A stretch of 33,176 bases of DNA from Yinghuangia soli (GTDB lineage: Bacteria; Actinomycetota; Actinomycetes; Streptomycetales; Streptomycetaceae): the NCBI RefSeq assembly GCF_021502675.1, contig NZ_JAKFHA010000012.1, positions 207,739 through 240,914 on the forward strand. Direction: 5' to 3'. Below the pieces are notes generated by a model. That model saw only the letters and a program-made list of their open reading frames with translations, had not been told where the DNA came from and did not search any database. Made by a program: the position numbers and the translations under genes. Positions 14,204 to 33,176 of this stretch are shown piece by piece (position 1 is the first letter of the stretch; each line of letters starts with the position of its first letter).

Positions 14204-14211
14204 GTCCTGCC

Positions 14212-16717: not shown

Positions 16718-16765
16718 GGACCCGAGGAGCCGCCGAGTCGGTCCGGCACGGCCGAAGGCGGGCCG

Positions 16766-17992: not shown

Positions 17993-18801
17993 CCAGACTC
18001 AGTGGCGACCAAGTCCGGACCGCGGTCAAACGCGGCCTCGCCCGGTGCGCCGGGCAGCGGCCCGGACCCGGCGCGACGGTACTGATCTACCACCGGGTCG
18101 GCGGCGGCACCCGCGACGAACTCGACATGCCCACCAGCGAATTCGCCACCCAGCTCGACGCCCTCCCGGGCGACGCCGTGGTCCCGCTGGACACCGCGCT
18201 CGACCGCCTCGACGCCCACGACCGCACCCCGTCCGTCGTGCTCACCTTCGACGACGGCTTCGCCGACGTGTACGAGAACGCCTGGCCGCTGCTGCGCGCC
18301 CGCGCCCTGCCCTTCACCCTCTACCTCGCCAGCGGCATGGTCGGCGGCACCATGCACTGGGAAGGCTCCACCGGCACCAGCTCCGGAGCCCCCGCGCTGA
18401 CCTGGGACCAACTCGCCGAGATGCACGACAGCGGGCTGCTCACCATCGGCAACCACACCCGCAGCCACGCCCGGCCCGAAGCCCTCAGCGAAGACGAACT
18501 CGACGCCGCATCGGACGAGATCGACAAGAACCTCGGCGTCCGGCCGGACCACTTCGCCTACACCTGGGGCATCCCGGTGCCCGCGATGGAGCACGCGCTG
18601 CGCTGCCGCTTCCGCAGCGCCGCCACCGGCGCACTCGGCCGCAACCTGCCCGGCACCGACCCGATCCGCCTCAACCGCGTCCCGGTCCGCCGCACCGACC
18701 CCGCCGACTTCTTCCGCGCCAAGCTGACCGGCAACCTCGGCCCGGAACGCGCGTACGCCCAGGTCGTCAAGCTCTCCAAGAAGGCGGGCGCACGTGCCTG
18801 A
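17989..18801 (+). CDS. NodB-type polysaccharide deacetylase (second copy)
   Basis: A 270-residue carbohydrate esterase family 4 protein. Motif 1 is TFDDG (86-90) and motif 2 is HTRSH (His156 and His160). Motif 3 reads FAYTWG (189-194) where most members have FAYPxG, so the Pro is replaced by Thr. The N-terminus is polar and basic, without signal peptide or membrane helix, so it should be cytoplasmic like the first copy. The ATG at 17989 overlaps the GNAT stop as ATGA. Its own stop lies 8 bp inside the next gene. It is expected to remove an N- or O-acetyl group from a sugar residue of the glycan precursor. Confidence 0.91.
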   Translation: MTRLSGDQVRTAVKRGLARCAGQRPGPGATVLIYHRVGGGTRDELDMPTSEFATQLDALPGDAVVPLDTALDRLDAHDRTPSVVLTFDDGFADVYENAWPLLRARALPFTLYLASGMVGGTMHWEGSTGTSSGAPALTWDQLAEMHDSGLLTIGNHTRSHARPEALSEDELDAASDEIDKNLGVRPDHFAYTWGIPVPAMEHALRCRFRSAATGALGRNLPGTDPIRLNRVPVRRTDPADFFRAKLTGNLGPERAYAQVVKLSKKAGARA

Positions 18802-20047
18802 CCTCGACCCCGCACCGGCCGGCAAGCTGCCCGGCGGCCTCGTCGTCCCGGTCGGCCCCGGCGGCCGCCCGCTGCGCGTCGCCCACCTGACCACCGTCGA
18901 CATGAGCCTGGCCCTGCTGCTGCGCACCGAGCTGGAAGTCGACGTGGCGGCCGGCTTCACGGTCTTCGGACTCAGCGCACCGGGCGAATACGTCCCCGAG
19001 ATCGAGGAACTCGGCGTCACCCACGTACCGCTCGACGCCCTGACCCGCTCCTGGGACCTGGCCCGCGACGCCGCCGCCGCGCGCGAACTCGCCGCCACGC
19101 TGCGCCGCCTGGACCTCGACGTCCTGCACACCCACAACCCCAAGACCGGCGTCCTCGGCCGGCTGCTCGGCCGCGCGGTCGGCGTCCCCGTCGTGGTCAA
19201 CACCTGCCACGGCCTGTGGATCCGCCCCGGCGACCCGTGGCCGCGCCGCGCGTTCGTGCTCGGCGCCGAGTCCGCCGCCGCCCGGGCCTCGCACGCCGAG
19301 CTCTACCAGAACGCCACCGACCACGCCACGCTCGCCCGCGCCGTCCCGGCCTGGCGCTCCCGCGTCGTCGGCAACGGCACCGACCTGTCCCGCTTCCACC
19401 CCGACCCCGAGGCCCGCGCCCGGATCCGCGCCGAACTCGGCGTCTCCGCGGACGAGATACTCGTCGGCGGCGTCGGACGGCGCGTCGCGGAGAAGGGCAT
19501 CGCCGAGTACGAACAGGCCGCCGGCTCCCTGGCCGGCAAGGCCAGGTTCGTCTGGATCGGCCCCGAAGACCTCGACAAGGCCGACGCGTTCACCGTCGAC
19601 ACCGCCTCCGGCGTCGAATACCTCGGCGGACGCTCCGACATGCCGGACATCTACGCCGCACTCGACCTGTTCGTCCTGCCCTCGTACCGCGAGGGCTTCT
19701 CACGCTCGGCCATGGAAGCCGCCGCCAGCGGCGTCCCCATGGTCCTCAGCGACATCCGCGGCTGCCGCGAGATCGGCACACACGGCGAACACCTGCTGCT
19801 CGTCCCGCCCGGCGACGCCGCGGCCCTGGCCGCCGCCATCGACCGGATGCTCACCGAGCCCGGGCTGCGCAGCCGCCTGGCCGCCGCCGGCCGGGCCCGC
19901 GCACTCGCCGAGTTCGACCAGCGGCGCGTCGCCCAGGTGTCGATCGACACCTACCGGGCGGTCGCCCGACGCAAGCGCCTGGGCTGGGGCACCCGTCCCG
20001 CCGGGGGAGAAGGCGACCGGCACCACAGGGGAGGAGGCACGGCATGA
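18794..20047 (+). CDS. Glycosyltransferase family 4 protein
   Basis: A 417-residue GT-B glycosyltransferase. After a 27-residue Pro/Gly-rich leader the Rossmann fold starts at LRVAHLTTVDMS. The acceptor half has LDVLHTHNPKTGVLGRLLG and NTCHGLW, and the donor half has VGGVGRRVAEKG and the EX7E motif in REGFSRSAMEAAASG. These features are close to those of capsular-polysaccharide transferases that act just after the initiating phosphoglycosyl transferase (EpsD/CapM-like). The GTG at 18794 overlaps the deacetylase by 8 bp, with AAGGCGG upstream; the stop overlaps the next ATG by 4 bp. It is most likely the second-sugar transferase of the glycan. Confidence 0.93.
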   Translation: MPDLDPAPAGKLPGGLVVPVGPGGRPLRVAHLTTVDMSLALLLRTELEVDVAAGFTVFGLSAPGEYVPEIEELGVTHVPLDALTRSWDLARDAAAARELAATLRRLDLDVLHTHNPKTGVLGRLLGRAVGVPVVVNTCHGLWIRPGDPWPRRAFVLGAESAAARASHAELYQNATDHATLARAVPAWRSRVVGNGTDLSRFHPDPEARARIRAELGVSADEILVGGVGRRVAEKGIAEYEQAAGSLAGKARFVWIGPEDLDKADAFTVDTASGVEYLGGRSDMPDIYAALDLFVLPSYREGFSRSAMEAAASGVPMVLSDIRGCREIGTHGEHLLLVPPGDAAALAAAIDRMLTEPGLRSRLAAAGRARALAEFDQRRVAQVSIDTYRAVARRKRLGWGTRPAGGEGDRHHRGGGTA

Positions 20048-22020
20048 TGCGCAGGCTTTTCGACCTCACGACCGCCGCGCTGACGCTGTTGCTGCTCGGC
20101 CCGGCGATGCTGGTGATCGCCGTCTTCATCCGCACCACCATGGGCGGACCGGTGCTCTTCCGGCAGACCCGCAGCGGACTGCGCGGCCGCGAGTTCCGCA
20201 TCCTGAAGTTCCGCACCATGCGGCATCCGCGCTACCCGGACGAGCCCGACCAGGACCGGATCAGCCGCGTCGGGCAGATCCTGCGCACCACGAGCATGGA
20301 CGAACTCCCGCAGCTCATCAACGTGCTGCTCGGCGACATGTCGGTGATCGGACCCCGCCCGACCCTGCCCGAGCAGGTCGCGCACTACACGCCGCGCCAG
20401 CGCGGCCGCCTCGAGGTACGCCCCGGCCTGACCGGCTGGGCCCAGGTGCAGGGCCGCAACGCGCTCAGCTGGCCGGCCCGCATCGAGTACGACCTCTACT
20501 ACGTGCGCAACCACGGCTTCACGCTCGACGTGCGCATCTTGCTGCGCACCGTGGGCGTGCTGCTCAAGCCGCAGGGCATCACCGGCGCGGACGGCGTCAA
20601 CCCCGGCTTCCCCATCGCGGAGAAGGCCGCGGCCGCCGCCAAGCAGCCGGCCGCCGCCGCGGTGATCGCCGGCCCTGCGAACGGGTCGGCCGCATCCGGC
20701 GGGGCGGCCAAACAGGGGCCCTGGACCGTCCCGTTCAGCGCACCGCACAGCAGCGCCAAGGTCGACCCGGTCCCCGCCGAAGAAGCCTCCTGAGGCCCGG
20801 CGCCGGCGAACAGCACGCACCACCCGCAGCAGCACGAAGCCGCGGGGGCGGTCACCCGCCCCCCCGGCGTCGTGCTCCCGCAGCCCCGCCCCAGCCCCCC
20901 GGCCCCGCGCCCCAGCCCCCAACTGATCGTCCGGCGCCGCCGTGGCGACCCCCAGGATCAGGCCCATCGCGATCAGCACCACCGGGAACTCCGCGACGTA
21001 GTCCATCGAGCAGTGCAGGGCGAACGCCGTCAACGTCACCGCGCCCACCGCCACGACCGCGGGCGACTGCCGCGAACGCCATAACCGCACGTACGCCCAC
21101 CCCAGCAGCGCGACCAGCAACGCCACACCCGGCAGCCCCTGTTCAGCGGCCTGCCGCAGCCACAGCGAGTGCGCCGACTTGGTGTCCGCGTCGGCCTGCG
21201 CGGTCGGGCTCTGGGCCAGGAACGTCCCCGGGCCGCTACCCCGCCACGGGTCGTCCTTCACCATCTCCAGCGAGTCGTGCCACACCTCCAGGCGGCGCTC
21301 GGTCAGCCCCTGCTCCGCGGTCCCGCGCACCCCGGACGCCTGCGTGACGCGGTCGCCGCCCAGGTACACCGTCCCGGCCGCCATCACCGCCACGCACAAC
21401 GCGCCCGCGACCACCAGCGAACCGCGGCGCCGCGCCGATGTGGCGGTCAGCCCGATGACCAGGATCGCCACCGCACCCAGCACCGCGGCCAGCGACCGGG
21501 TGGCGAACGCCCCCAGCACCAGCAGCCCGGCCAGCAGGTGCATTTCGCCGCGCCGCCGGTCGCTCGGCGCGGCCAGCGCCCCCAGGCACGCCGCACCCAC
21601 CGCCTGCGCGGCCAGTGCGCCGTTGGCGTTCCCGTAGCCGAGCGGCTTGGCCAGCGTCGCCCCGGTCAGCGCGTCCGGCGACAACAGCAGCAGCACCGCC
21701 ACCGCACCGGCGACCCCGGCGCACACCGTGAACGCCGAACGCGCCCCCGCCACCCGCCCCGTCGCGTACGCCGCGACCGCGGTCGACAGCGCGAGCAGGA
21801 ACCCCTCCGGACTGGCCGGCCGACCCGCCGCGGCCAGCAGCGCCCACACCGCGGCCGCCGCCACCGTGATCACGCCGAGCAGGTCCAGCCGGGACAGATT
21901 CCCGCCCGGCCGCCTGCCGGTGACCCCGAGCGAACGGCGCACCGCACGCGACCTCTTCAGCCGCCGCCACGCCCGCGCCGCCCGCGTACCCCTGATGCGG
22001 TCCCGGATCATCGGCGGCAT
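19951..22020 (-). CDS. O-antigen ligase/polymerase-like membrane protein with anomalous read-through end
   Basis: The first 367 residues (22020 down to 20920) form a polytopic protein with about ten hydrophobic helices and the Wzy/WaaL-type region WRGSGPGTFLA plus AHSLWLRQAAEQGLPG (about 259-298). This is the periplasmic loop of O-antigen ligases and polymerases. After DDQL (364-367) similarity-type sequence ends, but the frame has no stop. It runs through the hairpin at 20831-20876 and antisense over the whole phosphoglycosyl transferase gene to 19951, giving about 690 residues. That extension is charged, low-complexity and unlikely to be real. A one-base indel in the C/G-rich tract at about 20860-20920 would let it stop at TGA 20852-20854. 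The ATG at 22020 is chosen; GTG 22047 is an alternative. Its role is export-side polymerisation or ligation of the glycan. Confidence 0.7.
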   Translation of the reverse strand: MPPMIRDRIRGTRAARAWRRLKRSRAVRRSLGVTGRRPGGNLSRLDLLGVITVAAAAVWALLAAAGRPASPEGFLLALSTAVAAYATGRVAGARSAFTVCAGVAGAVAVLLLLSPDALTGATLAKPLGYGNANGALAAQAVGAACLGALAAPSDRRRGEMHLLAGLLVLGAFATRSLAAVLGAVAILVIGLTATSARRRGSLVVAGALCVAVMAAGTVYLGGDRVTQASGVRGTAEQGLTERRLEVWHDSLEMVKDDPWRGSGPGTFLAQSPTAQADADTKSAHSLWLRQAAEQGLPGVALLVALLGWAYVRLWRSRQSPAVVAVGAVTLTAFALHCSMDYVAEFPVVLIAMGLILGVATAAPDDQLGAGARGRGAGAGLREHDAGGAGDRPRGFVLLRVVRAVRRRRASGGFFGGDRVDLGAAVRCAERDGPGPLFGRPAGCGRPVRRAGDHRGGGRLLGGGRGLLRDGEAGVDAVRAGDALRLEQHAHGAQQDAHVEREAVVAHVVEVVLDAGRPAERVAALHLGPAGQAGAYLEAAALARRVVRDLLGQGRAGSDHRHVAEQHVDELREFVHARGAQDLPDAADPVLVGLVRVARMPHGAELQDAELAAAQSAAGLPEEHRSAHGGADEDGDHQHRRAEQQQRQRGGREVEKPAHHAVPPPLWCRSPSPPAGRVPQPRRLRRATAR
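20044..20793 (+). CDS. Undecaprenyl-phosphate phosphoglycosyl transferase (PglC/WcaJ-C type)
   Basis: A 249-residue monotopic phosphoglycosyl transferase. It has one N-terminal re-entrant hydrophobic helix (about 9-30), then KFRTM (55-59) and the catalytic Asp-Glu dyad in TSMDELPQL (Asp86-Glu87). It continues with LLGDMSVIGPRP and RPGLTGWAQVQGRN, all hallmarks of the small PglC-like class that transfers sugar-1-phosphate from a UDP-sugar to undecaprenyl phosphate. It lacks the large N-terminal domain of WbaP. The last 60 residues are an Ala/Pro-rich tail of unknown role. The ATG at 20044 follows GGGGAGGAGG. It is the initiating enzyme of the locus and the last gene of the rightward operon. 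Confidence 0.95.
   Translation: MMRRLFDLTTAALTLLLLGPAMLVIAVFIRTTMGGPVLFRQTRSGLRGREFRILKFRTMRHPRYPDEPDQDRISRVGQILRTTSMDELPQLINVLLGDMSVIGPRPTLPEQVAHYTPRQRGRLEVRPGLTGWAQVQGRNALSWPARIEYDLYYVRNHGFTLDVRILLRTVGVLLKPQGITGADGVNPGFPIAEKAAAAAKQPAAAAVIAGPANGSAASGGAAKQGPWTVPFSAPHSSAKVDPVPAEEAS
20831..20876. terminator. Long bidirectional hairpin terminator
   Basis: A 46-nt inverted repeat. agcacgaagccg (20831-20842) pairs with cggcgtcgtgct (20865-20876) with one mismatch, then GGGGGCGG (20844-20851) pairs perfectly with CCGCCCCC (20856-20863) around a TCAC loop. It lies 37 bp after the phosphoglycosyl transferase stop and at the place where the opposing O-antigen-ligase-like gene should end. Confidence 0.85.
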
Positions 22021-22061
22021 CCGTTCGTCCGGCGCACCCTCCGGCACGGCAGGATGGCCCC

Positions 22062-22670
22062 ATGCCGTTCTTCATCGCCGGAGCCGGGGGCGTGGGCCGC
22101 GAGGCCCTCGACGCGGCCATCGCCGCAGACGTCGCCGTCGACGCGTTCCTCGACGACTCCCTGGCCGGAAGCAAGATCCGCGGACTGCCGGTCCTGCGGC
22201 CCGCCGAGGCCGGCCCGGACGGGCTCTACCTCGTGGGCATCGCCGCCCCCGCGGTACGCCTGCGCCTGGCCGCCCTGCTCGACGGCCTCGGCCTGCGCCC
22301 CGCGACCCTGGTCCACCCGCGGGCGGTCATCGCCCCCGAGACGACCGTCGCGGAAGGCTGCCTGGTGCTCGCCAACGCGCACGTGTCCAGCAGCATCACC
22401 GTCGGCCCGCACGCCCAGGTGCACTACAACGCCACGGTCGGCCACGACACCGTGCTGGACGCGCGCGTGACGGTCTACCCCGGCGCGAACGTGTCCGGCA
22501 ACGTGCACCTGTGCGAAGACGTGACGGTCGGCAGCGCCGCGGTCGTCCTGCAAGGACTCACCGTCGGCGCCGGTGCGTTCGTCGGCGCGGGCGCCGTGGT
22601 CACCCGCGACGTCCCGCCCGGCGAAGTGGTGGTCGGATCCCCGGCCCGCCCCCTCCGCCGCGCGACCTGA
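22062..22670 (+). CDS. PglD/NeuD-type sugar acetyltransferase
   Basis: 202 residues. An N-terminal Rossmann-like half (FIAGAGGVGREALDA) binds the UDP-sugar. A left-handed beta-helix of hexapeptide repeats (about 84-195: ITVGPHAQVHYNATVGHD and following) binds acetyl-CoA. The catalytic-base position in NATVGHD (His128) matches the PglD active-site His, and the end VVVGSPARPLR is typical. Such enzymes acetylate UDP-4-amino-sugars (PglD) or sialic acid (NeuD). No aminotransferase or dehydratase for a 4-amino-sugar is in the window, so the substrate is open. The ATG at 22062 is divergent from the O-antigen-ligase-like gene with only about 40 bp between starts, so the two promoters must overlap. 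Confidence 0.9.
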   Translation: MPFFIAGAGGVGREALDAAIAADVAVDAFLDDSLAGSKIRGLPVLRPAEAGPDGLYLVGIAAPAVRLRLAALLDGLGLRPATLVHPRAVIAPETTVAEGCLVLANAHVSSSITVGPHAQVHYNATVGHDTVLDARVTVYPGANVSGNVHLCEDVTVGSAAVVLQGLTVGAGAFVGAGAVVTRDVPPGEVVVGSPARPLRRAT

Positions 22671-22709: not shown

Positions 22710-23660
22710 TCATCCCCGGGGGGAGACCGCGACCCGGGACCGGAACCACGCGACCGTGTCCTCGAGCCCCTGGCGCAGGTCCACCGGTTCGGCATCCGGG
22801 AACAGGCTGCGCAACTCGCTCGAATCGGCCTGCGAGTCCCGCACGTCGCCGGCCCGCGGCTCGACATGCTCCACCTCGACCGGGTGGCCCAGCACGTCGG
22901 CCAGCAGCGCGATCAGATTGTTGAGCGAAGTACGGCTGCCGAACGCCAGGTTCACCGGACCGTCGTGCGTCACCCGGCGCACCACCGCGTCGGTGAGCAC
23001 GCCGCACACACTGGCCACGTTGGTGAAGTCGCGCGTCTGCTCGCCGTCGCCGTGCACGGTCAGCGGCCGGCCGGCCAGCGCGGCGTCGATGAACCGCGGG
23101 ATCACCGCGGCATAGGCGTGGTCCGCGGGCTGCAGCGGACCGAACACGTTGAAGAACCGGAACGGCAGCACCGGCAGGCCGTAGCAGTGGCCGTACGCCA
23201 GCACGTACGACTCGGTCGCCAACTTGCTGACCGCGTACGGGCTCAGCGGCATCGTGCGCAGGTCCTCGCGCTTGGGCAGCACGGGGTTCTTGCCGTACAC
23301 CGACGACGACGACGCGGCGATCACATGCGCCCCGCCCGCCCGCCGCGCGGCCTCCAGGACCATCAGCGTCCCGGTCGCATTCGCGTGGTGGCTGGCCAGC
23401 GGGAACTCGATCGACCGGGGGACCGACGGCAGCGCCCCCAGGTGCACGACCGCGCCCGCACCCGCGCACGCCTTGTCCATCAATTCCTCGTCCAGGAACG
23501 TCCCGTGGTGGAACGCGACCTCGACGCCGGCGAGGTTGTCCAGCGATCCGGTGGACAGGTCGTCCACCACCGCCACCTCGTCGATCTCGGGCCGGGCAAG
23601 CAGAGTCCGGGCCAGATTCGACCCGATGAACCCTGCTCCTCCGGTGACCACGACCTTCAT
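22710..23660 (-). CDS. NAD-dependent epimerase/dehydratase, UDP-sugar 4-epimerase-like
   Basis: A 316-residue extended short-chain dehydrogenase. NAD binding is shown by VTGGAGFIGSN (5-15) and DDLSTG (33-38). The active site has SSSSVYG (117-123) and the catalytic YxxxK in YAVSK (Tyr142, Lys146). FRFFNVFGPLQ is the family-typical substrate loop. The closest functional groups are UDP-glucose/UDP-GlcNAc 4-epimerases (GalE/WbpP/Gne-like). The ATG at 23660 follows GGGGGG; 51 upstream in-frame residues are rejected because MKVVVTGG is the standard family start. It converges on the PglD-like gene 39 bp away. It probably makes UDP-Gal, UDP-GalNAc or a uronate epimer for the surface glycan. Confidence 0.93.
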   Translation of the reverse strand: MKVVVTGGAGFIGSNLARTLLARPEIDEVAVVDDLSTGSLDNLAGVEVAFHHGTFLDEELMDKACAGAGAVVHLGALPSVPRSIEFPLASHHANATGTLMVLEAARRAGGAHVIAASSSSVYGKNPVLPKREDLRTMPLSPYAVSKLATESYVLAYGHCYGLPVLPFRFFNVFGPLQPADHAYAAVIPRFIDAALAGRPLTVHGDGEQTRDFTNVASVCGVLTDAVVRRVTHDGPVNLAFGSRTSLNNLIALLADVLGHPVEVEHVEPRAGDVRDSQADSSELRSLFPDAEPVDLRQGLEDTVAWFRSRVAVSPRG

Positions 23661-24122
23661 GAGCCCCCCAGCGTCTTCCGGCGCCGCCGTCGCAATTCGC
23701 CGCGGCAGACGCGCAGTGCGTGGTGTCTGTTCTGCGTGAAGTTGCCTGAAACCTGCATGAACCCGGCTATGTGCCGGGTCCTCCGGACCGCCGCCGCGAG
23801 CCCCCTTGCGCATGGCCGGTCCGGTGAGGGCATGCTACCCACCGCCTGTGCCCGCCGGGGGCGGGACGGCCAACCACGGCGACCGGGGGCCTCGCGGAGG
23901 CCCGTGCCGAGGTGTGGCGCAAAAACCTTCTTGCGAGTTGGCGGCGGCAACCGTCGGGATGTGCCGACACCAGGGCTGATCTTGCGCAACACTGTGCCCA
24001 GGCAAACTGCCGGCGACGCTCGCCCCCGCCGGAATCGGACCGCGGGGGACGCCGGCAGACGGCCTGGTCGGCGTCCCTTGGGGAGAGGGGCCGATCGGGT
24101 CCTAGGGGTAGGGGTCGCCATC
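23661..24122. other. Divergent intergenic region upstream of the first DUF4082 giant
   Basis: 462 bp without a gene, between the leftward epimerase and the rightward secreted protein. It holds two perfect hairpins: ACCCGGC/GCCGGGT with a 5-nt loop at 23761-23779, and GGGCCTC/GAGGCCC with a 3-nt loop at 23887-23903. I see no clear -35/-10 pair of the main sigma class. The last 30 bases before the ATG at 24123 are G-rich (AGGGGTAGGGG) and supply the ribosome site. Confidence 0.55.
23761..23779. promoter_or_regulatory. Perfect 7-bp inverted repeat
   Basis: ACCCGGC, TATGT loop, GCCGGGT. It lies about 100 bp upstream of the epimerase start and 340 bp upstream of the secreted-protein start. It is a candidate operator or RNA hairpin; the assignment is positional only. 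Confidence 0.35.
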
Positions 24123-27100
24123 ATGCAATCCGCGGCAGTACGCCGTCTCGATTTCCGCAAATTGACGCCGCGGTGGCGGGGGCGCCCCGTGGCACCCGTC
24201 TATCTGCTGCTCTTTGCGCTGCTCGCCGCCATGGCCATCGTGCTGCCCACCGCCGGGCGCGCCTCGGCCGGGCCGTGCGATGCACCGATCGTCAACGCGA
24301 TCGTCTGCGAGAACAGCAAGACCGGTACCGCGCGCACCACGTGGGACATCACGGGCTCGGGCAGCAGCACCATCCAGGGCTTCACCACCGACATCAGCTA
24401 CAACGTCGGCGAGACGGTGCGCTTCAAGATCAAGACACCGGCCACGGGCTACCGGCTCGACATCTACCGGCTCGGTTGGTACGGCGGCAACGGGGCCCGC
24501 AAGATCACCACCGTGAACCCGACGGCGCCGCTGCCGCAGAACCAGCCCAACTGCAACGCGGACAACGCCAACACCGGCCTGATCGACTGCTCGAACTGGG
24601 CCGAGTCGGCCTCGTGGCCCATCCCCGCAGGCCAGGTGTCCGGCTACTACATCGCCAAGTTGGTGCGCACCGACGGCACCACCGGCGCCAGCCACATCGC
24701 CTTCATCGTCCGCGACGACGCGTCGACCTCGAAGATGCTCATGCAGGCCTCCGACTCCACGTGGCAGGCCTACAACGAGTACGGCGGCAACAGCCTCTAC
24801 GAGGGCCAGCCGGCCGGCCGCGCCTACAAGGTCAGCTACAACCGGCCGTTCACGACACGTGGCGACAACCCCGAGGACTGGCTGTTCAACGCCGAGTACC
24901 CGATGCTGCGCTTCCTGGAGCGCAACGGCTACGACGTCACCTACACCACCAACGTCGACAGCGCCCGGCGCGGCAACCTCATCAAGAACCACAAGGTCTT
25001 CCTGTCCGTCGGCCACGACGAGTACTGGTCCGCCGAGCAGCGCACCAACGTCGAGGCCGCCCGCGACGCCGGCGTCCACCTCGCCTTCTTCTCCGGCAAC
25101 GAGGTCTACTGGAAGACCCGTTGGGAGAACGGCGGCATGAACGGCGAAGGCGCGGCCTACCGCACCGTCGTCAGCTACAAGGAGACGCACGACAACGCGA
25201 AGACCGACCCGGCCGGCCCCAACATGTGGACCGGCACCTGGCGCGACCCGCGCTTCTCGCCGCCCGCCGACGGCGGCAAGCCGGAGAACGCGCTGACCGG
25301 CCAGCAGTTCAAGGCCAACTGCTGCACCACCGAGCTCAAGGTCAACAGCGCCGACGGCAAGATGCGGTTCTGGCGCAACACCCGTGCCGCGACGCTCGCC
25401 ACGGGCACCGAGACCCAGCTCGGCAACGGCCTCCTCGGCTACGAGTGGGACGTCGACACCGAGAACAGCGTGCGGCCCGCCAACATGATCCGGCTGTCGG
25501 CCACCACGCAGTCCGGCCAGATGCTGACCGACTACGGGTCGTCGTACGCCAACGGCACCGCGACCCACCACCTGACCCTGTACCGGGCCGCCAGCGGCGC
25601 CCTGGTCTTCGGGGCCGGCACCATCCAGTGGTCGTACGGCGTGGACAACACCCGCAACGTCGGCACCGCCGGCGTCGACACCGCGGTCCAGCAGGCCACC
25701 CTCAACCTGTTCGCCGACATGGGCGTCACGCCCGGCACCTTGATGGCCGGCATGACCGCCCCGGTCGCCAGCACCGATGTCACCCCGCCGACCTCGTCCA
25801 TCAGCGCCCCGGCGCCGGGCCAGAACATCGCGGTCAACGAGCCGTTCACCATCACCGGCACCGCGGCCGACACCGGCGCCCCGAACAGCAAGGTCGGCGG
25901 CGTCGAGGTGTCGGTCGACAACGGCGCCACCTGGAAGCCGGCCAGCACCGGGCGCGAGGCGTGGACGTTCTCGTTCACCCCGACCACCACCGGCCAGATC
26001 ACCATCAAGTCCCGCGCCACCGACGACAGCGTGCGCAGCGAGACGCCCGGCGCCGGAGTCACCGTCACGGTCGGCAGCGGCGGACCGCCGCCCACCGTGA
26101 ACTGCCCGTGCACCATCTGGCCGGAAGGCACCGTGCCCAGCCAGGGCCCGGACCCGGAGGCCGTGGCCGTCGAACTCGGCGTCAAGTTCAAGGCGGACCG
26201 GGACGGCTTCATCACCGGCGTGCGCTACTACAAGTACGCCGAGAACACCGGCACCCACGTCGGCCACCTGTGGAGCAGCAACGGCACCCAACTCGCCGAG
26301 GCCACCTTCACCGGTGAGACCGCCAGCGGCTGGCAGCAGGTGAACTTCGCCAACCCGGTCGCGGTCACCGCGAACACCACGTACATCGCCTCCTACCTGG
26401 CCCCCAACGGCAGGTACGCGGCCGACGAGCAGTACTTCGCGGCCGGCTTCGCCCGCGCCCCGCTCACCGCGTTTGCCTCCGGTGCCTCCGGCGGCAACGG
26501 CGTCTACCGCAGCGGCGGCGGGTTCCCGAACCAGACCTGGAACGCCGCGAACTTCTGGGTCGACGTCGTGTTCAACACCAACGGCACCCCGCCGCCGGCC
26601 GGCCCCGCCGTCACCGGCAAAACCCCCGCCGACGGCGCCGCCGCGGTGGCCGTGGGCACCAACCTGACCGCGACGTTCGACAAGGACGTGCAGGCCGCGA
26701 CCATCGCGTGGCAGCTCAAGAAGCCGGACAACTCCACGGTCAGCGGCACCGCTTCGTACAACAGCGGCACCAAGACCGCGACGTTCGACCCGGGCACCGA
26801 CCTGGCCGCCGGAACCGTCTACACCGCCACGCTCAGCGGCGCCAAGGACACCAACGGCACCACCATGAACCCGGTGACCTGGTCGTTCACCACGGCCGGC
26901 AGCACCCCGCCGCCCACCTGCACCAACGCCGCGCCCTGCACGATCTGGCCGGCAAGTGCGGTACCGGGCACCCCGGCCGACCCGGAGTCGATCCCGATCG
27001 AGGTCGGCGTCAAGTTCAGGACCGACGTCAACGGGTCGATCACCGGCGTGCGCTTCTACAAGGGAGCCGGCAACAGCGGCACCCACGTCGCGCACCTGTG

Positions 27101-27419
27101 GACCGCCGACGGCACCCTGCTCGCCACCAAGACCTTCACCGGCGAGACGGCCACCGGATGGCAGCAGGTCCTCTTCGACACCCCGGTCGCGGTGACCGCG
27201 GGCACCACATACGTCGCCTCCTACTACGCACCGGTCGGACGCTACGGCTTCGACCAGGACGGGCTGCTCCAACAGGCCGGCACCGGCCCGGTCAAGGCGC
27301 TCGCCAACGGTCCGTCCGGCGGCAACGGAGTCTTCAAGGCCGTATCCGGCGGGGGCTTCCCCACCGACTCCTGGAGCGCCAGCAACTACTGGGTGGACGT
27401 GACGTTCACGACGAGCTGA
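24123..27419 (+). CDS. Secreted modular protein: DMFase-beta-like domain, Ig-like and two DUF4082 domains
   Basis: 1098 residues. A long basic n-region and hydrophobic helix (about 24-48, ending GRASA) make an export signal. Residues 85-540 resemble the C-terminal domain of the N,N-dimethylformamidase beta subunit, an amidotransferase-like fold, with LDIYRLGWYGGNGAR, WLFNAEYPMLRFLERNGYDVTY split across 253-274, and SVGHDEYWS (295-303) with FFSGNEVYWKTRW after it. Next come an Ig-like domain (553-651), DUF4082 (664-818), a Big_5-type Ig domain (826-924) and a second DUF4082 (939-1097). No LPXTG anchor is present. Real dimethylformamidase activity is unlikely from context; a surface-carbohydrate role is inferred from the DUF4082 modules and the adjacent glycan locus. 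The ATG at 24123 is the only good start. Confidence 0.88.
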   Translation: MQSAAVRRLDFRKLTPRWRGRPVAPVYLLLFALLAAMAIVLPTAGRASAGPCDAPIVNAIVCENSKTGTARTTWDITGSGSSTIQGFTTDISYNVGETVRFKIKTPATGYRLDIYRLGWYGGNGARKITTVNPTAPLPQNQPNCNADNANTGLIDCSNWAESASWPIPAGQVSGYYIAKLVRTDGTTGASHIAFIVRDDASTSKMLMQASDSTWQAYNEYGGNSLYEGQPAGRAYKVSYNRPFTTRGDNPEDWLFNAEYPMLRFLERNGYDVTYTTNVDSARRGNLIKNHKVFLSVGHDEYWSAEQRTNVEAARDAGVHLAFFSGNEVYWKTRWENGGMNGEGAAYRTVVSYKETHDNAKTDPAGPNMWTGTWRDPRFSPPADGGKPENALTGQQFKANCCTTELKVNSADGKMRFWRNTRAATLATGTETQLGNGLLGYEWDVDTENSVRPANMIRLSATTQSGQMLTDYGSSYANGTATHHLTLYRAASGALVFGAGTIQWSYGVDNTRNVGTAGVDTAVQQATLNLFADMGVTPGTLMAGMTAPVASTDVTPPTSSISAPAPGQNIAVNEPFTITGTAADTGAPNSKVGGVEVSVDNGATWKPASTGREAWTFSFTPTTTGQITIKSRATDDSVRSETPGAGVTVTVGSGGPPPTVNCPCTIWPEGTVPSQGPDPEAVAVELGVKFKADRDGFITGVRYYKYAENTGTHVGHLWSSNGTQLAEATFTGETASGWQQVNFANPVAVTANTTYIASYLAPNGRYAADEQYFAAGFARAPLTAFASGASGGNGVYRSGGGFPNQTWNAANFWVDVVFNTNGTPPPAGPAVTGKTPADGAAAVAVGTNLTATFDKDVQAATIAWQLKKPDNSTVSGTASYNSGTKTATFDPGTDLAAGTVYTATLSGAKDTNGTTMNPVTWSFTTAGSTPPPTCTNAAPCTIWPASAVPGTPADPESIPIEVGVKFRTDVNGSITGVRFYKGAGNSGTHVAHLWTADGTLLATKTFTGETATGWQQVLFDTPVAVTAGTTYVASYYAPVGRYGFDQDGLLQQAGTGPVKALANGPSGGNGVFKAVSGGGFPTDSWSASNYWVDVTFTTS
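26112..27413 (+). repeat. DUF4082-Ig-DUF4082 repeat block in the first giant
   Basis: DUF4082 copy 1 (26112-26576) and copy 2 (26937-27413) share GTHV-HLW, FTGETA-GWQQV, NPVAVTA/TPVAVTA-TTY-ASY and a closing W-FWVDV/YWVDV. The Ig-like domain between them (26598-26894) begins after PAVTGKTPADGAAAV. The same block type is found in the downstream gene. Confidence 0.85.
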
Positions 27420-27444
27420 CGCTCGGCCCACCGCACGTCCACAA

Positions 27445-27471
27445 GGCGGGGCGCCACTACGGCGCCCCGCC
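27445..27471 (+). terminator. Perfect hairpin between the two DUF4082 genes
   Basis: GGCGGGGCGCC (27445-27455) pairs with GGCGCCCCGCC (27461-27471) across ACTAC: 11 perfect pairs. It lies 25 bp after the first stop and 37 bp before the second start. It could be a terminator, a partial attenuator setting the ratio of the two proteins, or an mRNA stabiliser. Confidence 0.75.
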
Positions 27472-27508
27472 GCTCCCGCACCTGAATTTCCACTGAGGAG
27501 TACCGACG

Positions 27509-30500
27509 ATGGCTCGCCGCCACGCGCCGCCACATTCCAGAGGTTTGCGGGCTTTCGGCCCGTTCCGCAGCCGCAAGAAGAAGGCTGCCGTAATGTCCAG
27601 CGTCACCACCGCACTTGCGGCGGTCGCGGCGCTGGTCTTCACGCTGTTCTCCCCGCTGTCCGCGCAGGCCGCACCGTGCAACCCGTGCTCGCTCTTCGGA
27701 TCCACGAGCCCCGGGATCGGCCCCGACAGCGAAGCCATCTCGGTCGAGCTCGGCGTGCGCTTCGTGCCGAAGACCAACGGCCGGGTCCTCGGCATCAGGT
27801 ACTGGAAGGACGCGGCCAACACCGGCACCCACAAGGGCTACCTGTGGAACACCACCACGGGCACCGCCACCCAGGTCACCTTCCAGAACGAGACCGCCTC
27901 GGGCTGGCAGCAGGCCCTCTTCGCGGCGCCGGTCAACGTCACCGCGGGCACCACCTACATCGCGTCGTACCTCGCACCGAACGGCCGCTACACCGCGACC
28001 ACCGGCTACTTCAACGTGGTGCACGACAGTGAGCAGCTGACCGCCCCGGCCAGCACCGGCCAGCAGGGCAACGGCGTCTACCAGGCGGGCGCCGGCGGCA
28101 CGGTCATGCCGAACAACTCCTGGAACGCCAGCAACTACTGGGTCGACGCGGTCTTCGAGCCGGGCGTGGACTCCACCGCGCCCACCGTGACCGCCAAGTC
28201 CCCGGACGCGGGCGCCACCGGCGTGCAGGTCAACACCTCGATCACCGCCACCTTCAGTGAGGCGGTACAGGCCAACACCATCGTCTGGGAGCTGAAGAAG
28301 CCGGACAACTCCACGGTGGCCGGCACCGCTTCGTACGACCCGGGCACCCTGACGTCGACCTTCACCCCGTCCGCCAACCTCGCGGTGTCCACCCTGCACA
28401 CCGCCACGGTCAGCGGCGCGAAGGACCTGGCGAACAACACCGTCACCCCGGTGACCTGGTCGTTCACCACCGCGGCGACGCCGCCGTCCACGACGAACTT
28501 CAGCATCTTCACCGGCAGCGAGCCGGTCGGCACCCCGGACAGCGACGACTCGCCCAACGAGCTCGGCGTCCGGTTCCAGCCGACCGCCAACGGCTTCATC
28601 AAGTCGATCAAGTTCTACAAGAGCGCAGCCAACATCGGCCCGTTCACGGTCAGCCTCTGGAACACCAACGGCACCCGCCTCGCCGGCACCGACAACGTCA
28701 ACCTGACCGGCACCGGCTGGAAGACCGTCAACCTGCCCAACCCGGTCGCCGTCACCGCGGGCACCGCGTACGTCGCCTCGTACCACACGATGAGCGGCAA
28801 CTACGCCTACAACAACGGGTACTTCGCCGGGAACTCGGCAGGCAACGCCAAGCTCGTCGCGCCCGCCAGCACCGCGCAGACGCCCAACGGCGTCTACAAG
28901 TACTCGGCGAACACCTCGTACCCCAACGAGACCTACCAGGCCAGCAACTACTGGGTCGACGTCGTCTTCGCCACCGACGGCACCGACAACATCGCACCCA
29001 GCATCACCGGCCAGACCCCGACGCCCAACGCCGACGGAGTCCCGGTCGCGATCCAGCCGAACGTGGCGTTCAGCGAGCCGGTCAAGCCCGCCAACTTGAG
29101 CTTCACCCTCAAGCAGGGCGCCTCGACCGTCGCCACCACGCTCGAACTGGACGATGCCGCACAGCCCACCCAGGCGCTGCTCAAGCCCAACGCGCCCCTG
29201 GCGTACAACACGCAGTACACCCTGACCCTGGGCAACTACCAGGACCTGGCCGGGAACGGCGCCACCGGCGCCACCTGGACGTTCACCACCGGCAGCCCGC
29301 CGCCACCGGCGCCGTGCTCGTCGCCGAACGCCGGGCCGATCCTGGTCGTGACCGCCAACGCCAACCCGTACGCCTGCTACTACAGCGAGATCCTGCGCGC
29401 CGAAGGCCTCAACTCCTTCACCACGCTGGACATCGGCGCGGTCAACGCGGTCGAGCTCAACAAGTACACGACCGTCATCCTGGGCGACCTCGACCCCAGC
29501 CCGGCGCTCGTCACCGCCCTGACCACCTGGGTCAACAACGGCGGCAACCTGATCGCGATGCGTCCGCGGGCCACGCTCGCCGGACTCACCGGCCTCACCG
29601 CCGGCTCCGGCGTGCTCAGCGAGCAGTACCTCAAGGTCGACGCGGCCACCGGTCCCGGCGCGGGCATCTACGCCGACCGGGCCATCCAGTACCACGGCAG
29701 CGCCGACCAGTGGACGCCCGCCGCGGGCACCACGGTCATCGCCGAGCTCTACCGCCGCAACCCCGGCATCGCCGAACCCGTGTCGGTCGGCAAGCCCGCG
29801 GTCACCCAGCGGACCGTCGGCGCCGGCACCGTCTCGGCGTTCACCTTCGACCTCGCGCGCTCCGTCGTCCAGACCCGGCAGGGCAACCCCGCGGTCGCCA
29901 ACCAGGAGCACGACAGCCTCACCGGGCTGCGGTCGACCGACATGTTCGCCCGCGACTGGACCGACCTGAACCGGGTCGAGGTGCCGCAGGCCGACGAGCA
30001 GCAGCGCCTGCTCGCCAACATCATCGAGAAGGCCAACACCGAGAAGGCCCCCGTCCCGCGCTTCTGGTACTTCCAGGGCAAGGCCGGCGCGCCGACCCCC
30101 GACCTGCACCCGGCGGTCCTGGTCTCGACCGGCGACCACCACAACACCCCGCAGGCCGGCATCACCTACCGCGTCACCAAGTACACCGCCAACAGCGACC
30201 CGGCCTGCGCCAACGCCGGCACCGCCGCCCAGGCCGTGAAGGACTGGCGCTGCATGCGCGGCACCTTCTATATCTGGGACGCCAACGGCGAGGCCTCCGC
30301 GGCCACCATCCAGGGCTGGCGCGACCAGGGCTTCGAGGTCGCCCGGCACGTCTCCGACAACGGCGGCTGCGTGGGCATCGGCCCGGGCGCGAGCCCCTCG
30401 TTCGTCACCTCGAAGCTCACCACGGTCTACACCAACAGCCTGAACGACTTCGAGGGCAAGTACGGCTACACCCCGACCACCAGCCGCACGCACTGCATGA

Positions 30501-32746
30501 TCTGGCCGGACTACAGCACCAACGCCTCGGTCGAGCAGACGTTCGGCATCCGGATGGACACGAACTACTACTACCTGCCGGACACCTGGTCGAACACGTA
30601 CGGCTCGCCGCTCATGAAGAACGCGCCGGGCTACTACACCGGCTCGGGCCTGCCCATGCGGTTCACCAAGACCGACGGCACCATGATCGACGTCTACCAG
30701 GCCACCACGCAGCTGCACGACGAGTTCTGCCAGACGTACCCGACCCAGTTCGACACGATGGTCGACCGCGCCCAGGGCACCCAGGGCTTCTACGCGGCCA
30801 TCACGCTCAACAACCACCTCGACAACGAGCAGGGCAACAGCACCGGGTCCTGCGCCCGCGTCGACCAGAACGTGATCCAGGACGCCGTCATCGCCGCGGC
30901 CAAGGCCAAGGGCGTCCCGATCATCACCGCCAAGCAGCTCCTCGAGTGGACCGACGGCCGCAACCAGTCGTCGATCACCGGACTCGCCCGCAACGGCAAC
31001 AACGTGACCTTCACGGTCAACGCCGCCGCGGCCGCGTCCAACCTCATGACGATGCTGCCCACCGCCGGGGCCGGCGGTACCACGCTCACCGGGATCACCC
31101 GCGCGGGCACGCCGGTCGCCTTCTCCACGAAGACCATCAAGGGCATCGAGTACGCGGTCTTCAACGGAGTCTCCGGCGCCTACACCGCCACCTACGCGGC
31201 ACCGCTCGCCGCCCCGATGGTCCAGACGCTCGCGGCCGCCCCGGCCCCGGACGGCACCGCCAAGGTGTCCTGGACCACCGACACCGCCGCGACCACCGAG
31301 CTCTCGCTCGGCCAGGACCCCGACGCCCTCGCGCCGGTCGCCAAGGTCGCGGAGAACAGCGCCGAGCACCAGGTCAAGGTCCCGGCCCTCAAGCCGGACA
31401 CCACCTACTACTACCGCGTCACCTCGGTCGACGCGGGCGGGCGGCGCACCGTCAGCCCCGGCCCCGCGCAGAAGCCGGCCAGCTTCAAGACCCCCAAGGC
31501 GGACAAGAAGTCGCCCAAGCTGACCGACCAGAGCGTCGTGCCCTGGCCGGACGGGTCCGCGGTCGTCACCTGGAAGACCAACGAGCCGTCCACCACCAAG
31601 GTGGTCGTCGGGCAGGGCCTCAAGGACCTGCGCGTCGCGGTCGACGACACCGAGCTCGTCACGACCCACAAGGCCGTGATCACCGGGCTCGAACCGGGTC
31701 AGTCGTACATGTTCCGGCTCTTCTCTTCCGACGCGGCCGGCAACGAGTCCGTCTACTCCGGAAAGAAGGCCGACACCGCCCGGTTCGACATGCCGAAGAA
31801 CGGCGTCGCCGAGCACACCGGCCCGAGCTTCGCGGGCGGCACCCGTACCGGGGGAGCCGTGGTCAACGAGACCGACGGCACCCTCACCCTCGGCAGCCAG
31901 GCGGAGCAGGACTTCGCCGACGGCACCGGCACGGGCCCCTGGGCCCAGGCCCCGGTCTCGCCCAAGGGCAAGACCACCGTCTCCGAGGGCGCCCTCACCC
32001 TGGACGGCAGCGCGGCCGGCTCCGGCCTCGCCCCGACCTCCGGCCGCAAGCTGGACTTCCAGGCGGTCTTCGACGGCCCGGCCACGCAGTCGGCCGGCTG
32101 GGGCGACCCGGCCACCGGCCCGGCCGCCGCCTTCGAATGGCGCGGCGACGCCCTGTACGCCGTCACCGTCGGAGCCGGGGGCAAGGACCGCACCGACAAG
32201 AAGATCGACGGCGACTGGAACGGCGCACCCCACTGGTACAACATCGAACGGGACGGGAAGACCTTCCGCTTCTGGATCGACGGCCAGAAGGTCGCCGAGG
32301 TCAAGACCCAGCTCCCGCCGATGGCCGCCAAGGCCCGCGACTCGCTGACCGACCGCATCCCGCTGCGCATCAAGCAGCTCCAGGACGGCGACAAGCTCGT
32401 CTCCGGGACGTACACGTCGCAGGTCCTGGACGCGGCCCAGATGGTCAGCTGGGTGCAGGCCACCTGGCAGGCCGACCTCCCGAGGGGCACCTCCCTCAAG
32501 GTCTCGGTCCGCACCGGCAGCAAGGCCGTGCCGGACGCCACCTGGACCGCCTGGCGCGACCTGGCCGGCTCGGGTGCCCCGCTCGGCGGCGGATCCCGCT
32601 ACCTGCAGTACAAGGTGGAGCTGACCGGCACCGGCACCGCCTCTCCGACCCTGCTGGGCATCGCCTTCACCCACGACGGCAAGCCCGCCGCGGAGCCGGC
32701 CGAGGCCCCGCACGTGGGGGAGGTCCCGCCCGCCAAGAAGCAGTGA
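27509..32746 (+). CDS. Giant secreted modular protein: DUF4082 x2, Ig x2, amidotransferase-like, putative NodB-like, FnIII
   Basis: 1745 residues. A signal peptide with a long basic n-region has its core at about 30-50 and likely cleavage after SAQA (54). Then follow DUF4082 (61-217), Ig-like Big_5 (223-322), DUF4082 (330-488) and Big_5 (496-594). Residues 607-785 look like a class I amidotransferase/ThuA-like fold (ILVVTANANPYACYYSEILRAEGL split, WVNNGGNLIAMRP). Residues 845-1150 carry LVSTGDHHNTP (872-881), GFEVARHVSDNGGC (941-954) and FYAAITLNNHLDN, suggesting a divergent NodB-like barrel. Two fibronectin III-like repeats (1233-1327, 1337-1425) and a lectin-like sandwich (1450-1722) end the protein. 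GAGGAG lies 8 nt before the ATG. There is no cell-wall anchor. The enzyme activity is inferred, not shown. Confidence 0.88.
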   Translation: MARRHAPPHSRGLRAFGPFRSRKKKAAVMSSVTTALAAVAALVFTLFSPLSAQAAPCNPCSLFGSTSPGIGPDSEAISVELGVRFVPKTNGRVLGIRYWKDAANTGTHKGYLWNTTTGTATQVTFQNETASGWQQALFAAPVNVTAGTTYIASYLAPNGRYTATTGYFNVVHDSEQLTAPASTGQQGNGVYQAGAGGTVMPNNSWNASNYWVDAVFEPGVDSTAPTVTAKSPDAGATGVQVNTSITATFSEAVQANTIVWELKKPDNSTVAGTASYDPGTLTSTFTPSANLAVSTLHTATVSGAKDLANNTVTPVTWSFTTAATPPSTTNFSIFTGSEPVGTPDSDDSPNELGVRFQPTANGFIKSIKFYKSAANIGPFTVSLWNTNGTRLAGTDNVNLTGTGWKTVNLPNPVAVTAGTAYVASYHTMSGNYAYNNGYFAGNSAGNAKLVAPASTAQTPNGVYKYSANTSYPNETYQASNYWVDVVFATDGTDNIAPSITGQTPTPNADGVPVAIQPNVAFSEPVKPANLSFTLKQGASTVATTLELDDAAQPTQALLKPNAPLAYNTQYTLTLGNYQDLAGNGATGATWTFTTGSPPPPAPCSSPNAGPILVVTANANPYACYYSEILRAEGLNSFTTLDIGAVNAVELNKYTTVILGDLDPSPALVTALTTWVNNGGNLIAMRPRATLAGLTGLTAGSGVLSEQYLKVDAATGPGAGIYADRAIQYHGSADQWTPAAGTTVIAELYRRNPGIAEPVSVGKPAVTQRTVGAGTVSAFTFDLARSVVQTRQGNPAVANQEHDSLTGLRSTDMFARDWTDLNRVEVPQADEQQRLLANIIEKANTEKAPVPRFWYFQGKAGAPTPDLHPAVLVSTGDHHNTPQAGITYRVTKYTANSDPACANAGTAAQAVKDWRCMRGTFYIWDANGEASAATIQGWRDQGFEVARHVSDNGGCVGIGPGASPSFVTSKLTTVYTNSLNDFEGKYGYTPTTSRTHCMIWPDYSTNASVEQTFGIRMDTNYYYLPDTWSNTYGSPLMKNAPGYYTGSGLPMRFTKTDGTMIDVYQATTQLHDEFCQTYPTQFDTMVDRAQGTQGFYAAITLNNHLDNEQGNSTGSCARVDQNVIQDAVIAAAKAKGVPIITAKQLLEWTDGRNQSSITGLARNGNNVTFTVNAAAAASNLMTMLPTAGAGGTTLTGITRAGTPVAFSTKTIKGIEYAVFNGVSGAYTATYAAPLAAPMVQTLAAAPAPDGTAKVSWTTDTAATTELSLGQDPDALAPVAKVAENSAEHQVKVPALKPDTTYYYRVTSVDAGGRRTVSPGPAQKPASFKTPKADKKSPKLTDQSVVPWPDGSAVVTWKTNEPSTTKVVVGQGLKDLRVAVDDTELVTTHKAVITGLEPGQSYMFRLFSSDAAGNESVYSGKKADTARFDMPKNGVAEHTGPSFAGGTRTGGAVVNETDGTLTLGSQAEQDFADGTGTGPWAQAPVSPKGKTTVSEGALTLDGSAAGSGLAPTSGRKLDFQAVFDGPATQSAGWGDPATGPAAAFEWRGDALYAVTVGAGGKDRTDKKIDGDWNGAPHWYNIERDGKTFRFWIDGQKVAEVKTQLPPMAAKARDSLTDRIPLRIKQLQDGDKLVSGTYTSQVLDAAQMVSWVQATWQADLPRGTSLKVSVRTGSKAVPDATWTAWRDLAGSGAPLGGGSRYLQYKVELTGTGTASPTLLGIAFTHDGKPAAEPAEAPHVGEVPPAKKQ
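27689..29290 (+). repeat. Two DUF4082-Ig cassettes in the second giant
   Basis: DUF4082 at 27689-28159 and 28496-28972, each followed by an Ig-like domain (28175-28474 and 28994-29290). The first Ig domain shares a 23-bp identical stretch (28294-28316) plus a second identical block with the Ig domain of the upstream gene (26718-26740), showing a shared origin of the modules. Confidence 0.85.
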
Positions 32747-32778
32747 CGGAAGGCCGCCGCGACGGCCGCTGAAAGCGT

Positions 32779-32810
32779 GTGCGGGACCGCCCTCCGGGGC
32801 GGTCCCGCAC
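32779..32810 (+). terminator. Strong intrinsic terminator after the second giant
   Basis: GTGCGGGACCGCCC (32779-32792) pairs perfectly with GGGCGGTCCCGCAC (32797-32810) across TCCG: a 14-bp stem with a 4-nt loop. It insulates the secreted-protein genes from the rRNA promoters immediately downstream. Confidence 0.9.
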
Positions 32811-32814
32811 CGAT

Positions 32815-32843
32815 TTGGAGCTGCGCCGCAACGCATGTACTGT
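32815..32843 (+). promoter_or_regulatory. rRNA operon promoter, housekeeping type
   Basis: TTGGAG (32815-32820), a 17-bp spacer, and TACTGT (32838-32843): the correct geometry for the main vegetative sigma factor (HrdB/SigA). It starts 4 bp after the terminator and points toward the rRNA leader. It is the most upstream of three candidate rrn promoters. Confidence 0.7.
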
Positions 32844-32910
32844 TCTCCGAGTCCGACCGCGAGGGAGCTCTTCCCGAGGGGGTCGGAAGAGCAGAACAGC
32901 GGAAAGTGAA

Positions 32911-32939
32911 GCGGAAATCATCTGCTAAACTCGAAGCAC
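32911..32939 (+). promoter_or_regulatory. rRNA operon promoter, repeated unit 1
   Basis: An extended -10, TGC-TAAACT (-10 at 32926-32931), lies in a 29-bp unit with flanks CGGAAA upstream and GAAGC downstream. The unit is nearly repeated 82 bp later. No consensus -35 is present, as in several Streptomyces rrn promoters. Confidence 0.65.
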
Positions 32940-32992
32940 CGGAGGAAAGGCCCGCAAGGGAAATTCCAAAGGAAAGCAGAAAGCGAAACAGA

Positions 32993-33021
32993 CCGGAAAC
33001 GGTGTGCTAAGCTGGAAGCGC
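32993..33021 (+). promoter_or_regulatory. rRNA operon promoter, repeated unit 2
   Basis: The second copy of the same unit has TGC-TAAGCT as extended -10 (33008-33013), CGGAAA upstream and GAAGC downstream. Transcription would start near 33020 and read the leader below. Confidence 0.65.
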
Positions 33022-33176
33022 AGAAAGAAAAGAAACAAAAACAGTAACACCGAAGAGCGCAACGCCCGGAGAGACCGGTGAAAGGGTCTCGAAGGAAGCG
33101 TCCGTTCCTTGAGAACTCAACAGCGTGCCAAAAGTCAACGCCAAATAATACCCCGGCGTTCACGAAGCCCTTCGGG
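33020..33176 (+). other. rRNA operon leader (5' part; 16S gene lies beyond the window)
   Basis: Purine-rich leader with a GAGACC/GGTCTC hairpin (33071-33090). It is followed by the antitermination-type box TTGAGAACTCAACAGCGTG (33109-33127) and the characteristic GCCAAAAGTCAACGCCA continuation seen upstream of 16S genes in Streptomyces and relatives. The mature 16S 5' end is not reached before the window ends. Open frames in this region are not genes. Confidence 0.88.
33109..33127 (+). promoter_or_regulatory. boxA-like antitermination element
   Basis: TTGAGAACTCAACAGCGTG matches the conserved actinobacterial rrn leader box where the NusB/NusE-type antitermination complex assembles. It lies about 90 bp downstream of the last candidate promoter. 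Confidence 0.8.

Follow-up and report, generated by a model that had tools for sequence, protein, structure and literature searches.

Two neighboring DUF4082 proteins with dimethylformamidase-type and Agd3-like cores as a candidate exopolysaccharide-editing module in Yinghuangia soli

De-N-acetylation decides the behavior of polymers such as GAG and Pel in biofilms. In Agd3, a fungal polysaccharide deacetylase, a GATase1-like domain without a catalytic triad binds the GalNAc-rich polymer and is followed by the CE domain, whose listed residues are D377/D378, H510xxxH514, R613 and H668 (PMC7229062, in excerpt). For Pel, the UDP-GalNAc precursor is made by PelX (PMC9135694, in excerpt), the protein of structure 6wjb, which is given as P. 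aeruginosa (PMC9165828, in excerpt). Dimethylformamidase holds its iron through Y399, Y440 and E521, and its activity is lost in the variants Y440A, E521A, H519A, N547A and E657A (PMC7686228, in excerpt). In the open-licence PMC literature, we found nothing that ties the dimethylformamidase family to exopolysaccharide, or to polysaccharide in a secreted setting, nothing on beta-phenylalanine acylase, alone or linked to dimethylformamidase, and nothing on DUF4082 beyond one table line; as far as found there, a pair of a DMFA2_C core and an Agd3-like core is undescribed.

Here, we analyzed 33,176 nucleotides of the 9.7-Mb Y. soli genome (the window; G000:C4:207739-240914), which run to the end of contig 4. 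The original prediction of two neighboring giant proteins with export signals, two DUF4082 domains each, Big_5 domains and different cores was confirmed by the open reading frames and Pfam (Table 1). The first giant protein (P0001) and the second giant protein (P0002) are separated by 89 bp, and GC by codon position is of coding type for the reading frames that hold them (third position 0.90 and 0.97). By eye, both N-termini show a basic region, then a hydrophobic stretch, then an A-x-A-like site (about residues 1-49 in P0001). Pfam found DMFA2_C, Big_7, two DUF4082 (1.1e-104) and Big_5 on P0001, and two DUF4082 (3.2e-86), two Big_5, the core and then Pur_ac_phosph_N/fn3 on P0002; the second Big_5 stretch of P0002 sits between DUF4082 copy 4 and the core.

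Table 1. Features of the window, in order of position (start approximate where stated).
Feature	Position	Strand	Evidence
GT2	13112-14296	-	Pfam; start approximate
GNAT (PF13480 acyltransferase)	14293-15366	-	Pfam; start approximate
NodB	15321-16337	-	Pfam; start approximate
GNAT (PF13480 acyltransferase)	16766-17992	+	Pfam; start approximate
NodB	17989-18801	+	Pfam; start approximate
GT4	18794-20047	+	Pfam; start approximate
PglC-type initiating sugar-phosphate transferase (Bac_transf)	20044-20793	+	Pfam, NCBIfam
Wzy_C (O-antigen ligase/polymerase-type) protein	20790-22047	-	Pfam
NeuD/PglB/VioB-family (PglD-type) sugar acetyltransferase	22062-22670	+	Pfam, NCBIfam
NAD-dependent sugar epimerase, divergent from the pair	22710-23813	-	Pfam and structure-relative search
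P0001, first giant protein, 1098 aa, ATG	24123-27419	+	ORF call
DMFA2_C core, aa 112-508 of P0001	24456-25646	+	Pfam, E 1.7e-103
Big_7 Ig-like domain	25788-26006	+	Pfam
DUF4082 copy 1	26130-26561	+	Profile search and Pfam
Big_5 Ig-like domain of P0001	26601-26894	+	Pfam
DUF4082 copy 2	26958-27395	+	Profile search
P0002, second giant protein, 1745 aa, ATG	27509-32746	+	ORF call
DUF4082 copy 3	27710-28144	+	Profile search
Big_5 of P0002, better of two stretches	28169-28471	+	Pfam
DUF4082 copy 4	28523-28957	+	Profile search
Agd3-like core, aa 607-1153 of P0002	29327-30967	+	Predicted structure; inner domain boundary approximate
Post-core stretch of P0002, perhaps the counterpart of the Agd3 C-terminal beta-rich domain	30968-31228	+	Position and sequence only
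Pur_ac_phosph_N/fn3 repeat, better of two stretches	31238-31492	+	Pfam
C-terminal domain common to relatives, up to three copies per chain	31853-32665	+	Relatives' loci

A third gene downstream is unlikely: the 430-base tail matches the stretch just before the 16S rRNA gene in a complete genome of the same genus (G443; 91% over 133 bases and 92% over 50); in that genome, about 440 bp separate the gene from the 16S start. Window positions 32747-33176 thus look like an rRNA operon leader. In the named relative (L055), too, the sequence stops soon after the pair. Rfam gave no match on the window, a tRNA scan of locus L195 found none, and a promoter and terminator scan of 23700-33176 gave 0 promoter-like sites and 7 terminator-like sites versus 7.0 in shuffles.

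The central 547 residues of P0002 match no Pfam family over cut-off and no sequence in the PDB, that of Agd3 included. An AlphaFold model built from 84 aligned rows (the window and 83 of 88 core matches) reached pLDDT 89.5 and pTM 0.92, and its best solved match by Foldseek was Agd3 (6nwz, E 1.9e-11), ranked ahead of the GATase1-like domains of GH42 enzymes, with a mycobacterial polysaccharide deacetylase at rank 49. A viral structure library gave weak matches, which we did not use. Over the whole chain, the core model overlays poorly on Agd3 (TM 0.35/0.30, rmsd 15); the likeness therefore lies in the order of the domains and their local shape, and the domain angles may differ. The model predicts a GATase1-like domain (about the first 240 residues) followed by a NodB-like domain. 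Hence, of the 'amidotransferase-like' and 'NodB-like' domains that had been proposed, the first stands as a fold, with no Cys more than 90% conserved in it, and the second comes from the predicted structure, with no sequence profile behind it. An active class 1 glutamine amidotransferase with a Cys-His-Glu triad was rejected on the same missing Cys; by analogy, this part of P0002 looks like the binding domain of Agd3.

In core alignment numbering, D270, H341, C348, R387, H389, C390, R445 and H497 are found in 84/84 rows and H272 in 83/84; the conserved residues of P0002 are D876, H878, H947, R993, H995, R1051, H1103 and D1105. Of the CE18 motifs, the CM1 Asp-Asp is kept in part: its first Asp stands in 84/84 rows and its second, D271, in 77/84, and this second Asp is His in the window (H877 of P0002, where most relatives carry Asp). 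The CM2 HxxxH is absent from the core alignment: H341 has no second His, Thr is typical at a nearby position and Cys follows. The CM3 Arg and CM4 His are present as R445 and H497, assigned by spacing (52 residues apart versus 55 in Agd3). We infer a metal site of D271, H341 and H389 and a C348-C390 bond. Filing the core in CE18 or CE4 was rejected, as HxxxH is lacking and no PDB sequence matches. By motif, the second core is not CE18, though by analogy it probably works like Agd3.

The core of P0001 had been called dimethylformamidase-beta-like, and Pfam agrees, placing it in DMFA2_C (PF20254). With a profile of 48 rows (the window and 47 of 53 DMFA2_C matches), the best PDB matches were N-acetyl-(R)-beta-phenylalanine acylase (8huy, E 6e-15) and dimethylformamidase (6lvb, 4e-8). 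The dimethylformamidase residues Y399, Y440, H519, E521 and N547 align with Y217, Y226, H298, E300 and N326 of P0001. All are invariant (48/48 rows) except Y226, which is kept in 43/48; one row has Phe, and four loci (L057, L091, L103 and L104) have Tyr one column beyond, perhaps through an alignment shift. E657 corresponds to E441 (48/48 rows), placed only through the 8huy alignment and spacing. From these correspondences, we predict an Fe(III) site of Y217, Y226 and E300, with H298, N326 and E441. Both cores thus look like amide hydrolases. The Y. soli genome holds five further DMFA2_C genes (L033, L038, L042, L040 and L044, on contigs C3, C5, C8, C12 and C78), all away from any DUF4082 match.

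At window positions 30134-30142 (P0002 residues 876-878), a probable metal-ligand Asp is His throughout the genus and Asn in genus g240. The motif reads TGDHH in the window and the two other genus sequences, TGDNH in two g240 genomes and TGDDH in two solo cores. The His at this usual metal-ligand position in the window counts against the two-hydrolase reading preferred below, as do the lack of HxxxH and the poor overlay on Agd3. One could suppose that adhesion or a structural part in the matrix is the main role of the proteins, with cores impaired in the genus, as the long branch of the window core on our tree would also allow. However, all other conserved core residues are kept, and the DMFA2_C site residues are intact in the very genus and g240 genomes with the altered motif, so we consider this reading quite improbable.

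We searched genome contigs with three core rows and found 247 relatives, of which the best 80 gave 79 loci, or 78 without L077, which is the same record as L047. These 78 loci, from the best 80 of 247 relatives, come from about ten phyla. Within this same set, DMFA2_C accompanies the core in 47/78 loci, in the same reading frame in 25 and as a same-strand neighbor in 22; of the 31/78 without DMFA2_C, 20 lie near contig ends and 11 have at least 5 kb on both sides. DUF4082 is present in 73/78. The module was seen in Actinomycetota, Bacteroidota, Cyanobacteriota, Chloroflexota, Pseudomonadota and others, and among named relatives, one from Yinghuangia seranimata comes nearest to the second core (78%). 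In one genome (G165, a BroJett022 bin, also L077), a 3014-aa protein runs DMFA2_C, DUF4082, core and fn3-type C-terminal repeats, colinear with P0001 followed by P0002. A quick tree of the 84 cores, which span ten NCBI phyla (no phylum for four rows; 22/81 inner branches weak), needs at least 6 changes between the fused and split states and at least 2 in domain order. That these two enzymes were joined and separated again and again across phyla is the strongest evidence that both act together, and it supports the claim that the two cores form one system. Counted against a single module are three genomes with DMFA2_C and DUF4082 and no core match (G246, G085 and G189), one with core and DUF4082 but no DMFA2_C (G382), and the core loci lacking DMFA2_C.

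The amide that the first core cuts may be something other than a sugar N-acyl group, such as an aminoacyl decoration, a uronamide or a peptide link. Its solved relatives act on small amides (N-acetyl-beta-phenylalanine and dimethylformamide), and the two PF13480 acyltransferases of the block could make unusual amides. However, the constant partnership with the Agd3-like core fits N-acyl sugars, though it is compatible with other amides. We rate this alternative as possible, appreciably under an even chance. The two acyltransferases belong to two back-to-back sets of PF13480 acyltransferase and NodB deacetylase (window 13112-18801), which G443 carries also.

DUF4082 (PF13313) matched 12/396 genomes of the phylum sample, Y. 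soli included, nine of them over the curated cut-off. Hence, two copies apiece in two neighboring genes go far beyond what chance would give. The four window copies score 153-186 bits against a cut-off of 28.4 and share 42-59% pairwise identity, and they are four of the five copies in the Y. soli genome. The DUF4082 model is a beta-sandwich (pLDDT 91). Among solved folds, it comes closest to part of the phage phi812 baseplate (7.6e-5), followed by a PHR domain (4.3e-4), and CBM35, CBM6 and lectins match only at E >0.01; both points favor a spacer or protein-protein module over a glycan binder, a serious alternative that we place only slightly below even. Against a mere spacer, an alignment of 92 rows (the four window copies and 88 of 90 randomly drawn matches) holds near-invariant aromatics, namely W70 and Y87 (92/92) and W50 (90/92), which are W737, Y754 and W717 in P0001, and DUF4082 keeps company with carbohydrate-type enzymes, a GDSL protein among them. 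Glycan binding by DUF4082 is plausible, and the fold suggestive. In locus L050 (4300-7647; G183), DUF4082 is fused to a GDSL/SGNH esterase-type domain and six fn3 repeats.

The pair was predicted to belong to a glycan locus, and synteny in two genera bears this out. All three genus genomes searched, Y. soli included, carry the second protein, and in G443 the whole order is syntenic: GT2-GNAT-NodB, GNAT-NodB-GT4-PglC, Wzy_C, PglD, epimerase, pair and rRNA operon. The two g240 genomes read (G446 and G469, two of the four with the core) keep the pair, epimerase, PglD and Wzy_C in the same order and relative strands. We then compared about 20 kb around DUF4082 loci with 40 control stretches from seven genomes (G085 11, G225 9, G165 7, G000 5, G246 4, G382 3, G091 1; none from G183 or G189). 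The glycan-class seeds came from the window only, and many relatives' contigs are short. The eight DUF4082 loci, i.e. the 12 matching genomes less Y. soli and three below cut-off, exceed the controls: at least one glycan class occurs in 6/8 versus 4/40 (Fisher P 0.0004, kinship ignored) and at least two in 4/8 versus 0/40 (Fisher P 0.0004, kinship ignored). Among the core loci (best 80 of 247 relatives; kinship ignored), at least one class occurs in 26/78 (P 0.004) and at least two in 16/78 (P 0.0007); the other 52/78 have no match to these window-derived seeds, many on short contigs. DUF4082 pairs lying mostly apart from glycan loci would speak against the original prediction, and the count of 26/78 does so in part, set beside 6/8 for the DUF4082 loci. 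Bac_transf was found in 9/46 core loci versus 0.66 expected (background 224 genes in 324 Mb), where the 46 of 78 loci were hand-picked, mostly for long flanks, and locus matches came from our own profiles and the background from PF02397. Since glycan classes are enriched yet present in part of the loci, the association of the core with glycan-synthesis genes is real but not universal.

Neighbors were tallied by Pfam for up to two genes per side, on our own gene calls. Among the 25 commonest of 256 upstream families (122 proteins) were ABC_tran 7, Wzt_C 6, GT2 5 and WD40-type 5; among the 25 commonest of 198 downstream families (106 proteins) were hexapeptide 8, Gfo/Idh 7 and Response_reg 5 and, more rarely, Bac_transf 3, UDP-sugar dehydrogenase 3 and Poly_export 2. 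Neither list of 25 holds a glycoside hydrolase, a lyase or SusD. These lists, and the place of the pair among glycan-synthesis genes in the genus and in two g240 genomes, argue against a pair that attacks foreign polysaccharides for nutrition or competition, with DUF4082 docking on environmental polymers and the products imported. That reading draws on the secreted, multi-modular build, which is typical of polymer-degrading enzymes, and on a solo core that lies beside an ABC importer in one g249 genome; we hold it unlikely.

The core matched 46/297 genomes in a family search, 42 strongly, and we took the 4 weak partial matches as not real. Five solo-core loci (L198-L202), from the three related genera g249 (L198, L200 and L201), g246 (L199) and g244 (L202), show no DUF4082, DMFA2_C or glycan seed match. 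Two of these solo cores (L198 9061-12168; L199 8611-11742) are about 1040 aa long. Of the two loci scanned by Pfam, L198 in g249 adjoins a sugar-type ABC importer (solute-binding protein and two permeases), and the other has ribonucleotide reductase and an MFS protein as neighbors. The solo core may have a different role, perhaps in nutrition, and these five loci count against action on the cell's own polymer. The L198 solo core carries other, similar-looking terminal modules without a Pfam match.

The epimerase next to the pair has 6wjb (E 5e-63) and 6wj9 as its nearest solved relatives, then an unnamed epimerase, WbgU and WbpP; no NCBIfam epimerase family reached cut-off. Together with the likeness to Agd3, this PelX-like epimerase hints at a GalNAc-containing polymer, a lead rather than proof.

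Our preferred reading, for which we see the scales as evenly poised, is a module of two secreted enzymes by which the cell edits an amino-sugar exopolysaccharide of its own making. The upstream genes would make and polymerize the glycan, with the epimerase perhaps supplying a GalNAc-type precursor. Both giant proteins would be exported, and their DUF4082/Ig arrays and the GATase1-like domain would dock them on the polymer. There, the Agd3-like core would use a metal together with Asp/His acid-base chemistry to take off N-acetyl groups, and the Fe(III) site of the dimethylformamidase-like core would serve to cut a further amide, either a different N-acyl group or one at a different position. 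Such editing would leave a polymer that is cationic, adhesive and in part de-N-acylated, like GAG and Pel.

The label 'dimethylformamidase-like', which suggests solvent degradation, and DUF4082 can thus be recast as a candidate exopolysaccharide-editing module that lends itself to testing. If it is true, a second amide-cutting chemistry would be widespread beside a core that Pfam does not cover and, given that de-N-acetylation governs GAG and Pel behavior, the natural substrate of the dimethylformamidase family would become directly testable. More tentatively, and with rather less than even confidence, we propose that polysaccharide de-N-acylation is natural to the dimethylformamidase superfamily, with an Fe(III) amidase (two Tyr, one Glu) and an Agd3-like deacetylase of a new CE family joined in one module on one polymer in about ten phyla, and DUF4082 as a new carbohydrate-binding family.

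Among known systems, dimethylformamidase (6lvb) and the acylase (8huy) share with P0001 the DMFA2_C fold family and the conserved Fe(III)-site residues; their matched chains have neither DUF4082 nor an Agd3-like core, whereas P0001 has a predicted secreted, putatively polymer-docking build. PelX, a UDP-GlcNAc C4-epimerase, is the closest solved relative of the adjacent epimerase, with WbgU and WbpP also close. Agd3 of Aspergillus fumigatus (CE18 and CBM87) differs from the second core in its HxxxH and in sequence, which gives no match, and the excerpted text of PMC7229062 does not mention DUF4082 or DMFA2_C. PelA (CE21) and Bacillus cereus PelADA, extracytoplasmic de-N-acetylases of GalNAc polymers, have an Asp-His-His site with HxxxH, unlike the second core, and no such second amidase partner is described in the excerpted sources. 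According to those sources, the three-domain plan of PelADA is Agd3-like, and its catalytic His is soon followed by an Asp, comparable to H1103/D1105 of P0002. With Agd3, the second core shares a GATase1-like domain without the Cys-His-Glu triad preceding a NodB-like domain and, as excerpted from PMC7229062, an Asp base, Arg and His acid in similar order and an exopolysaccharide context.
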